Assembly: GCA_900321905.1 (NCBI GenBank)
Contig: ONXZ01000009.1
Coordinates: forward strand, 1-29,456
Source: an uncultured Eubacteriales bacterium
GTDB taxonomy: Bacteria > Bacillota > Clostridia > Oscillospirales > Acutalibacteraceae
Direction of reading: 5' to 3'
DNA: 29,456 bases
Shown here: piece by piece, positions 26,119 to 28,497 of the stretch
Layout: the number at the start of each line of letters is the position of its first letter
Numbering within the stretch: the stretch's first letter is position 1
The notes under the pieces: model-generated
Database searches by the model: none
The model's input: the letters and a program-made list of their open reading frames with translations, nothing else
Told to the model about the DNA's origin: nothing
Position numbers and translations under genes: made by a program

Positions 26119-26430
26119 TTATTTCTTTAAAAACTTTTTCTTGAATACGCCTTTTGGATCCTTAATCAGAAGGATGACAATCCAAGCAACCAGACCGAGT
26201 GCAACCACAGCCAGTCCGAGAAGAGAGTCGTTCAGAATATCTGCAAATTCCTGAATGAAATAATCTGCCTTCAATTCTGCATACTCAAAAACAAAGTCCA
26301 TCAACCACATAAGTGAAGCGCCCCAATAGATAAGGGAAAGCGTGCCGAGTTTGTATACATCTCTCTGTTCATTGGTGTACCAGATAATGGTAGCAATAAC
26401 AGCAGCAATAATTGTAATGAGTAACGTCAT
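26119..26430 (-). CDS. Small membrane protein of unknown function (three segments)
   Basis: 103 residues. Hydrophobic segments lie at about 1-18, 28-46 and 70-91; the end is a basic tail (D-P-K-G-V-F-K-K-K-F-L-K-K), which should be cytoplasmic. The loop between segments two and three is acidic (D-F-V-F-E-Y-A-E-L-K-A-D). No family is recognised. The start ATG at 26430 has a GGAGGA site, 13 nt after the stop of the 137-residue membrane protein gene. Together they form a two-gene operon driven by the C6TG4-box promoter at 26901 and closed by the terminator at 26075. The two proteins probably act together in the membrane. Confidence 0.75.
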   Translation of the reverse strand: MTLLITIIAAVIATIIWYTNEQRDVYKLGTLSLIYWGASLMWLMDFVFEYAELKADYFIQEFADILNDSLLGLAVVALGLVAWIVILLIKDPKGVFKKKFLKK

Positions 26431-26443
26431 GGATTAATCCTCC

Positions 26444-26857
26444 TTATGCAGCGCTCTTTTTGAGGCTCTTTTTAATTGCTTTTACCTTTGCTTCGGCAAC
26501 ACCGCAAATAATGCCCCATACAGCTGTTACTGTGATAGCCATAGAAACGCCTACTGTTGACATTTCCGACAGCATCTCCGCCGTGTCCTCAGGCGACGCC
26601 ATCGCTGTTAAGAAGGGTGGGAACGGAACCACCTCACCGTGCCAGAAATGCTCAAATGCAAGAAGCAGAACGCCGCCCCAAAGAAGACCTAAGAGCCAGC
26701 TCAGTCTTTTTGACCAAGTGATTTTCACATCTTCGGAAGCAAACTTATTGCCATCTGCAAGCTTCGGAGCCTGAATCTTCTGCTCTGATTTTTTTGCTGC
26801 GATATATGCGGCTGTCACAACGATAGCCTCAGCAGCAGGTACTAAAAAACATGCCAT
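26444..26857 (-). CDS. Small membrane protein of unknown function (HFWHGE-containing)
   Basis: 137 residues. The first segment (about 2-20, CFLVPAAEAIVVTAAYIAA) lacks a cleavage site and is likely a membrane helix. A cytoplasmic lysine-rich linker follows, then two more segments at about 52-68 and 98-117. Between them is an outward loop with E-H-F-W-H-G-E-V-V-P-F-P-P-F, two histidines and two glutamates that could bind metal. The C-terminus is strongly basic. I do not recognise the family. AAAGGAGG precedes the ATG at 26857. It is the first gene of the pair; the C6TG4-box promoter lies 44 nt upstream. Confidence 0.75.
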   Translation of the reverse strand: MACFLVPAAEAIVVTAAYIAAKKSEQKIQAPKLADGNKFASEDVKITWSKRLSWLLGLLWGGVLLLAFEHFWHGEVVPFPPFLTAMASPEDTAEMLSEMSTVGVSMAITVTAVWGIICGVAEAKVKAIKKSLKKSAA

Positions 26858-26900
26858 AATATATTTCCTCCTTTTTATTTTGGCTTATACCATAGAGTTT

Positions 26901-26942
26901 ATTATAGTAAACTATTAAAACATCAACAAGTCCCCAGGGGGG
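26901..26942 (-). promoter_or_regulatory. Promoter of the membrane pair with abutting C6TG4 box
   Basis: On the minus strand the box CCCCCCTGGGGAC (26942-26930) is followed directly by -35 TTGTTG (26929-26924), a 17-nt spacer and -10 TATAAT (26906-26901). The -10 lies inside an inverted repeat AGTTTA / TAAACT (26896-26913). The same layout occurs at 27757-27798. C/G-tract boxes of this kind resemble operators of the CsoR/RcnR/FrmR family, but no such regulator is in the window. Confidence 0.7.
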
Positions 26943-27010
26943 ATGTTTTTGTCGAATTTTATTCTTTGTTTATATTCCAATAGAGCAATGAATAATTCAG
27001 CTGACACTCG

Positions 27011-27709
27011 TTACGCAGGATATTGCGCAAGCAATCCCTCTAAGGTCTGCTCATATTCGTAGTGCTGTGAATAGGTTTTTACATTTACCTGCCGTCCCAT
27101 AAGATATAATATGTTGTAATATTGCGCCGCTTCCGTTGTCATGCCTGAGATTTTCTGAATCGGGAGCAATTTCATAATATCTTGACGAACCTTTTCATAG
27201 GATCCTCTTCCAACAGCAACAAGGCAACATGTACGGTTACACATATTCTCCATTTTCAATATCTCGTCAACATTACAGACAGCCGGACACATAGAGCTGA
27301 ACACAAAGTCAAATCTATCATCCGTTTCATATTCTTCCCATGCTTTCGGCAACGTTGTAATGTTGTTTAATCCGATTTCCTCCGCGTATTGACGGATAAC
27401 GGAAAGTGAAGCTTCATTCATATCAATAGCTGTTACGCTCTGACAAAGCTTTGCAAACTCCAAAGCATATCTGCCGCTCCCCGCACCTATATCAAGAACA
27501 CAGTCCTCAGCCGTCAACGCTTTTTCGTTTATCAGGAACTTCAGCATATCGCGAGCGTCTTTATTCTCTGTATAATGTGTACCCAGCATCTGCTCGGCAA
27601 CAAAGGACTAGTACGGCATCCAAAGCTTATTTCGTTTTATTCTTTCATCAGGCGTGCCGTATTTTCCGCTTTCTTCCCATGCTTTTTTATATTCCTCTAA
27701 TGTGAACAT
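27011..27709 (-). pseudogene. Class I SAM-dependent methyltransferase with in-frame amber stop
   Basis: The true start is ATG 27709 after AGAGGTGATGA, giving MFTLEEYKKAWEESGKYG, then R-N-K-L-W-M-P-Y, then TAG (27610-27608), then S-F-V-A-E-Q-M-L-G-T-H-Y-T in the same frame to 27011. The whole is 232 codons. The part after the stop (a possible restart is ATG 27589, 192 residues, without a clear ribosome site) holds the SAM motif VLDIGAGSGRYALEFA and the acidic strand end V-T-A-I-D-M-N. The amber codon is one base from TGG. Either the gene is freshly broken, or the stop is read through, or translation restarts at 27589 with the N-terminal 40 residues lost. The substrate is unknown. Confidence 0.8.
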
Positions 27710-27727
27710 TTCATCACCTCTTAAACA

Positions 27728-27798
27728 ATTTTAGATAAAAATGAGCAAAAAAACAACCCCCCTGGGGGCTTCTCGTACCAAAACGGAATTGCTATAAT
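27728..27798. promoter_or_regulatory. Divergent promoters sharing one C6TG5 box
   Basis: The box CCCCCCTGGGGGC (27757-27769) sits exactly between two -35 elements. Plus strand: TTCTCG (27770-27775), 17 nt, TATAAT (27793-27798). Minus strand, towards the methyltransferase: TTGTTT (27756-27751), 17 nt, TAAAAT (27733-27728). The plus -10 overlaps an inverted repeat ATTGCTA / TAGCAAT (27788-27809). A factor on the box would contact both polymerases. Confidence 0.7.
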
Positions 27799-27804
27799 GA
27801 AATA

Positions 27805-27940
27805 GCAATCAGGCCTTATCCTTATTCCTGCTATTTTAAAAGACAAACATGCTAAAAATCCGGCACTGATTGCACAGACTAACATTTAGTCTGCTAATTC
27901 CCTGACAGGCACTGAACATTTTGTTCGGTGCCTAATGTTT
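27805..27940 (+). ncRNA. Candidate small RNA from the divergent promoter
   Basis: Transcription from the promoter at 27770-27798 would begin near 27805. No open frame longer than a few codons follows. Two hairpins do: CAGACTAA / TTAGTCTG (27875-27893, 8 bp, 3-nt loop) and AGGCACTGAAC / GTTCGGTGCCT (27907-27933, 11 bp with one G-U), the latter followed by AATGTTTTA, a modest terminator tail. This gives an RNA of about 130 nt. No known family is recognised. It could alternatively be the long leader of the GH36 fragment at 28051, but that has its own promoter. Confidence 0.45.
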
Positions 27941-28050: not shown

Positions 28051-28497
28051 ATGGATTTTGGCATACAGTTTAAAGTTCGAGGGGACAGTTTCGGCGGTCA
28101 CTTCATTAACGGTATTTCAATGGCTGAAAGCGAAAGCATGTTGAAACTAAAGTTCGTTTCTTCCGACAAAGAAAAAAGTGAATATATCTCCGCCGACGGT
28201 TATAAAATCACGGCATATCATACTAATAAAAACGGCGTTTTTGAGTGTTATACGGTTTTTGAGAATCACTCGAATTCCGTTGTAACGCTTGAAATGATTT
28301 CTTCATTCTGTCTTAATAATATCGCTGCCGATACACTCCACCGCGCAACCTCGTTCTGGAGCGCAGAGGGTAAGCTGCTTAACCAAAAACTGACGGAGCT
28401 CAATATGGAACCATCTTGGAGCGGACACGGAATAAGAATCGAAAAATTCGATCAAAAGCTCGCCAACTTTTCAAACTACTATCAGATTTTAGACTGA
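28051..28497 (+). pseudogene. Truncated GH36 alpha-galactosidase, N-terminal domain only
   Basis: 148 residues from ATG 28051 (GAGGTG site). It reads VRGDSFGGHFINGISMAESE, then the F-E-C-Y-T-V-F-E-N-H-S strand, T-L-E-M-I-S-S-F, and F-W-S-A-E-G-K-L-L with W-S-G-H-G-I-R-I-E-K-F. This is the beta-sandwich before the catalytic barrel of classical (~730-residue) GH36 enzymes. Similarity ends after the last motif; a short unrelated tail (D-Q-K-L-A-N-F) and a stop follow, and the first ~80-100 residues of the family are also missing. No catalytic Asp is present. It is not derived from the compact GH36 gene at 7705. It is a remnant, although it keeps promoter, ribosome site and terminator. Confidence 0.8.

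Follow-up and report, generated by a model that had tools for sequence, protein, structure and literature searches.

The nickel-responsive members of the CsoR/RcnR family of metal sensors are described as DNA-bound without metal and released with metal (PMC7055735). InrS of Synechocystis is mainly described as a repressor of the exporter gene nrsD; binding of InrS upstream of nik, with enhancement of the import genes, is also reported, and its nickel ligands are given as His21, Cys53, His78 and Cys82 (PMC7055735). RcnR of E. coli, a nickel/cobalt sensor of the same family, represses efflux (PMC7055735), and its G-tract operator is of type 1, TACT-G6-N-AGTA (PMC3902906). Type-2 CsoR operators, such as that of S. 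lividans (ATATACCCCTNAGGGGTATAT), are described as a pair of G/C tracts, separated by a short gap and flanked by inverted AT-rich arms, and those described govern copper efflux (PMC3902906). NikR regulons control nickel uptake, and the operator of E. coli NikR is reported as GTATGA-N16-TCATAC (PMC7055735).

Here we describe a box, a C tract followed by a G tract, that abuts the -35 element of promoters in an uncultured Eubacteriales bacterium and its relatives. Judging from sequence comparison, the box is probably the operator of an InrS-like nickel sensor of the CsoR/RcnR family, the metal-free form of which most likely activates nickel/cobalt uptake. The genes under this sensor would make up a small regulon for the acquisition of nickel/cobalt, present in the genus of the bacterium and in some related Clostridia. 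The initial annotation of this DNA had suggested an undescribed regulon, and indeed no such regulon was found in the open-access papers that we searched.

Results

Boxes and promoters in the window

The window, that is, the whole stretch of 29,456 nt that was analysed, makes up contig C60 in a draft genome (G000) of 1.76 Mb that is 84% complete. The features discussed below are as follows.

26930..26942, minus strand: box 1, CCCCCCTGGGGAC, candidate operator for the InrS-like regulator, judged from the sequence and from relatives
26901..26929, minus strand: promoter 1, TTGTTG (26929-26924), 17-nt spacer, TATAAT (26906-26901), a geometry repeated in relatives
26444..26857, minus strand: gene of a 137-aa membrane protein with an EHxWHGE motif, putative target of box 1, candidate metal-transport component
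26119..26430, minus strand: gene of a 103-aa membrane protein, second in the operon, adjoining the 137-aa gene in relatives
27757..27769: box 2, CCCCCCTGGGGGC on the plus strand (GCCCCCAGGGGGG on the minus strand, 27769-27757), between divergent promoters
27770..27798, plus strand: box 2 plus promoter, TTCTCG (27770-27775), 17 nt, TATAAT (27793-27798), in the 13-nt register
27728..27756, minus strand: box 2 minus promoter, TTGTTT (27756-27751), 17 nt, TAAAAT (27733-27728), directed towards the broken methyltransferase gene
27011..27709, minus strand: gene for a class I SAM methyltransferase, interrupted by two in-frame stops; length of intact homologues, 276-281 aa
27804..27950, plus strand: two strong hairpins, not conserved as a whole, downstream of the box 2 plus promoter

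The consensus of the box is approximately C5-N2-3-G5, beginning 13 nt ahead of the TTG of the -35, and it recurs across the window's genus. The two copies in the window lie 0.8 kb apart and, with their T-rich flank, are identical at 21 of 24 positions by hand count, close to the figure of about 20 in the initial annotation. That annotation had also described three promoters of fixed geometry. When the coordinates were re-read, the box abutting the -35, the 17-nt spacer and TATAAT were confirmed at site 1 on the minus strand and at site 2 on the plus strand; the minus promoter of site 2 likewise has the box and the 17-nt spacer, but its first C is 12 nt from the TTG and thus off register by one. 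The inverted repeats that had been noted around the -10 elements are present at the window sites. However, the architecture of site 1 (AGTTTA-6-TAAACT) is found in only one of the 21 promoters of the 137-aa gene that have the box, and the repeats were therefore dismissed as a second operator and are not counted in the system.

With up to one mismatch, CCCCCCTGGGG occurs twice in the window against 0.08 expected occurrences, and none of 100 shuffles reached two. The exact word is found twice in the whole draft genome, both times in the window. The looser pattern CCCC-N1-5-GGGG-N0-2-TTG is found at six places in the draft genome (one control match), one of which, carrying CCCCCTATGGGGGTTG, is the promoter of another copy of the 137-aa gene, located on contig C166, and three appear unrelated. 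The -35 of the box 2 plus promoter is poor, and TTC in place of TTG is also seen at sites in two other genomes, G032 and G045. This promoter is 81% identical over 52-54 nt to the promoter of the 137-aa gene in G038; we infer that site 2 is a relic or a re-used regulon promoter.

The initial annotation had placed the membrane-protein pair, the methyltransferase and a small RNA under one shared regulator. A shared operator is supported for the operon of the 137-aa protein, as box and candidate regulator co-occur among genomes with the 137-aa gene (see below); membership of the other two, which are not conserved, is not supported. The methyltransferase gene was rejected as a conserved target on the basis of its two in-frame stops and because a search of 59 relatives at E<=1e-20 gave no match; at E<=1e-40 it was matched in one of 295 genomes, namely the window's own. 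An intact homologue is 99% identical over the query, and in two other records contigs of equal length (22412 and 7942) suggest that the methyltransferase gene neighbours the 137-aa gene. The hairpin region has a fold z-score of -5.45. It has no credible Rfam match and yielded only three short partial matches (52, 30 and 28 nt) in 79 genus relatives, and a conserved small RNA was likewise rejected. Further downstream, a 148-aa ORF (28051-28497) shows weak likeness to a GH36 N-terminal domain (E 0.019, below the cut-off) and is perhaps a gene fragment.

The box upstream of the membrane-protein operon in relatives

The 137-aa protein matched no Pfam or NCBIfam family. Of 7995 candidates scored, 7974 were homologues, and the 120 matches listed carry no function name. 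In 33 sequences the E, H, W, G and E of the EHxWHGE motif are invariant and the second H is nearly so. Together with the 103-aa protein, it would form a candidate metal-transport component.

Used as bait, the 137-aa gene was present in 36 of the 98 genomes searched, the window's own included, and we compared 31 upstream regions, from 30 genomes plus the second copy in G000. The prospect raised by the initial annotation, that the box might be missing upstream of orthologues, was not borne out: a C4+-N0-5-G4+ palindrome is found in 21 of the 31 regions, against a mean of 0.02 in mononucleotide shuffles, and in all 21 the first C lies 13 nt before the TT. The likeness to CsoR/RcnR operators that had been remarked on also holds, as the box consists of two G/C tracts with a short gap, like type-2 CsoR operators. 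Between maximal tracts the gap is variable in sequence and 0 to 4 nt long upstream of the 137-aa gene, compared with 2-4 nt in the type-2 operators described (PMC3902906). In boxed promoters an AT flank is usual on the left, and on the right the -35 takes the place of the AT arm.

When presence of the box is mapped on the 137-aa protein tree, seven changes are needed, and well supported branches force at least three of them. Since rows without the box occur at several points of the tree, a single lost clade does not explain them. In four genomes with no CsoR-family match (loci L019, L020, L021 and L029) the box is absent, and TTGTTAA...CAA-like palindromes, which we take to resemble Rex sites, lie near the -35 instead; here a replacement of the regulator upstream of the 137-aa gene is possible.

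Target genes in the genus and the order

We searched 80 genus genomes with a promoter-shaped pattern (box, TTG, 19-22 nt, TANNNT), using the reversed pattern as a control. The pattern was matched in 42 of the 80 genomes, and the control gave 4 raw matches. After overlapping rows had been collapsed by hand, 60 places were counted, 56 of which precede nickel/cobalt genes or the 137-aa gene: the downstream gene is the 137-aa gene at 21 places, an ECF S-component gene at 12, an ECF ATPase gene at 11, hypB at 7, cbiM/nikM at 3 and nikB at 2. Three of the other 4 places look by eye like coding or chance matches, and the fourth is box 2 of the window. In eight genomes, back-to-back pairs of boxes separate the S-component and ATPase genes. 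One representative each of HypB (244.5 bits, curated cut-off 121.2), the NikB-type permease (356.9 bits, cut-off 350) and CbiM (456.9 bits, cut-off 401) was scored above the cut-off of its model. One ATPase passes the ECF_ATPase_1 model, and one S-component is ECF_trnsprt by Pfam, a match that names no substrate. No palindrome was found upstream of the best-scoring 30 hypB genes, from 64 genomes with hypB above the cut-off, and hypB is therefore regarded as a lineage-specific rather than a core member.

In the order-wide search, 24 of 394 genomes matched, 22 of them outside the genus, with 2 control matches. Of 22 places examined outside the genus (25 were counted), 9 precede fitting genes and the rest do not; the 9 comprise the 137-aa gene (3), cbiM/nikM (4), an ECF S-component gene (1) and a gene of the regulator class described below (1). 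Altogether, 95 de-duplicated sites were collected, a set that is biased because part of the sites were collected by gene; 77 were labelled with regulon classes, and 76 after the removal of L187, which precedes a generic ABC ATPase. The targets point to nickel, and to uptake rather than efflux genes, which the initial annotation had not foreseen.

A candidate regulator and its links to the box

NikR was found in one of the 80 genus genomes, with a marginal score (22.9 bits, cut-off 22), and not in G000; it was set aside as the regulator. In contrast to NikR, CsoR-family proteins are present in 67 of the 80 genomes. They split into a class A, to which 29 of the best-scoring 30 loci belong, and a His-rich class B. 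Class A was also discarded, as several genomes with class A alone lack the box. The candidate regulator of G000 (contig C59:3999-4235) belongs to class B and scores 92.7 bits with PF02583 (DUF156; curated cut-off 22.8); the NCBIfam RcnR model gives 37.7 bits against a cut-off of 138. The best PDB match of class B is InrS (5fmn, E 5.8e-22), and His9, Cys41, His66 and Cys70, invariant in seven class-B proteins, align with InrS His21, Cys53, His78 and Cys82, so that all four nickel ligands are kept. In a tree of 17 proteins, with long branches and one starred fork, InrS falls outside class B.

Class B is linked to the box as follows. First, the box stands before the class-B gene itself at L261, L264, L270, L272, L274, L278 and L283 (7 of 80 among the loci listed; control 0), with one promoter common to L274 and L278. 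It also precedes the class-B gene in a genome of another family (L186 / G346), and L262 has the same spacing but TTATAA. In six of the seven loci named first (L261, L264, L270, L272, L278 and L283) cooS, the gene of the nickel enzyme CO dehydrogenase, follows about 0.3-0.5 kb downstream, and in the seventh the contig ends first. In four of the six, acsB is also downstream, and at L261 CODH and ACS models were matched. A ferredoxin-like gene lies on the opposite side of the class-B gene at L261, L264, L270, L272 and L283; the record of L278 starts too close to it.

Second, a boxed operon lies within 3.3 kb of the class-B gene in 5 of 49 class-B loci (G004, G015, G032, G045 and G111), and in a Hespellia record (L282) a box-like site in the 13-nt register comes after the class-B gene, followed by nikM.

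Third, box and class B co-occur. In 30 of the 36 genomes that have the 137-aa gene, both are present in 17, the box only in 3, class B only in none and neither in 10 (Fisher p 9.5e-6). The three box-only genomes are 68, 78 and 73% complete, and some absences of the regulator may be gaps, because the genomes without the box are 77-97% complete. Across the 80 genus genomes, 36 have both the pattern and class B, 13 class B only, 6 the pattern only and 25 neither (p 2.7e-6), in a table compiled by hand from raw pattern matches in which the divergent protein of G109 is scored as not B. Two of the 13 (G032 and G045) carry the box followed by TTC, and two of the 6 (G043 and G007) look by eye like chance or coding matches. 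G005 has class B without either a pattern match or the 137-aa gene. The recurrence of a CsoR-family gene with the box, which the initial annotation had proposed to look for, is thus seen for a class-B gene that is itself boxed, lies near boxed operons and co-occurs with the box. Comparison between genomes thus shows the box, the register it keeps, the genes it precedes and its link to the regulator gene.

Sign of control and alternative explanations

For a comparison of promoters, 55 regulon sites and 9 others were hand-picked from the 95 de-duplicated sites. The register is 13 in 54 of the 55 regulon sites and the spacer is 17 in 50, though the search had allowed wider ranges. At positions 4-6 of the -35, the match to ACA is 0.56 of 3 in the 55 regulon sites and 1.67 in the 9 others (p 0.02).

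These promoters are consistent with the following mechanism. The metal-free class-B protein would bind directly to the C-tract/G-tract palindrome that immediately precedes a weak -35, in most cases TTGTNN, and, once bound, would help RNA polymerase to start there. Nickel, the presumed effector, would fill the His/Cys site, the protein would leave the DNA and uptake would fall. If class B binds in the metal-free form, as the nickel-responsive family members described do, and if its targets serve uptake, binding would be expected to activate. Given the regulator, activation seems somewhat the better supposition for the sign of control. The class-B protein may act as both activator and repressor, because the palindrome comes shortly after the csoR -10 at L254, L259 and L279, where binding would repress; at these csoR genes it has ATAT flanks on both sides, as in type-2 CsoR operators.

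An alternative with the same regulator and box is that the apo-protein covers the -35 and thereby represses, and that nickel releases it and induces the genes. Repression of this kind is described for RcnR and InrS at efflux genes (PMC7055735) and for CsoR at copper efflux (PMC3902906). The three palindromes behind the csoR -10 agree with it, and nickel induction could suit the cooS-acsB neighbourhood of nickel enzymes. Nevertheless, we consider it unlikely: nickel induction of the uptake genes among the targets would amount to positive feedback, the near-constant 13-nt register and the weak -35 are more typical of activation, and InrS is itself reported as enhancing the nik import genes (PMC7055735).

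It is quite improbable that the regulator is instead a nickel co-repressor, the nickel-bound form of which binds the box and shuts uptake in the manner of NikR. Co-repression would suit uptake targets and negative feedback, and the co-repressors NikR and Nur are described with square-planar sites (PMC4235346), as is InrS (PMC7055735). However, nickel binding weakens DNA binding in all nickel-responsive CsoR/RcnR members described in the latter source (PMC7055735), and NikR itself is confined to the single genome mentioned above.

That another regulator reads the box, with class B a mere passenger of nickel-using genomes, would account for the 13 class-B genomes without a pattern match and the 6 pattern genomes without class B. 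This is very unlikely, given that several loci have the box at the gene of the regulator itself, that genomes lacking both box and regulator occur at several places in the 137-aa tree, and that the box resembles the type-2 CsoR operators described (PMC3902906). Finally, we rejected as scarcely credible the notion that the box is a structural leftover, be it a short hairpin that terminates transcription or the ends, in inverted orientation, of a cassette carrying the methyltransferase: the methyltransferase does lie between two window copies of opposite orientation, each with its T-run towards the gene, but the box also stands without a methyltransferase before dozens of other genes, in one fixed register to the -35.

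Discussion

An InrS-like activator of nickel/cobalt uptake would differ from the described systems in several respects. Compared with InrS, import genes are prominent here rather than an exporter gene, the operator has one fixed position, the hosts are Clostridia, and the 17-protein tree does not group class B with InrS. Two parts of this picture would be new, namely a CsoR-family sensor of gut Clostridia that directly activates nickel uptake from one fixed site abutting the -35, and a nickel (or cobalt) transporter of a new type, formed by the 137-aa/103-aa pair; we put forward the combination of the two only tentatively.

NikR is nearly absent from the genus, and the finding offers a candidate answer to the question of how nickel uptake is governed there, with a candidate regulator, an operator and a target list that are now concrete. 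It also links a hypothesis of metal transport with a large family of membrane proteins that bear no function name, and it places a class-B sensor beside the CO dehydrogenase/acetyl-CoA synthase genes in Oscillospiraceae. If the proposal is true, a family described, in the papers searched, mainly through the control of efflux would extend to the control of uptake.
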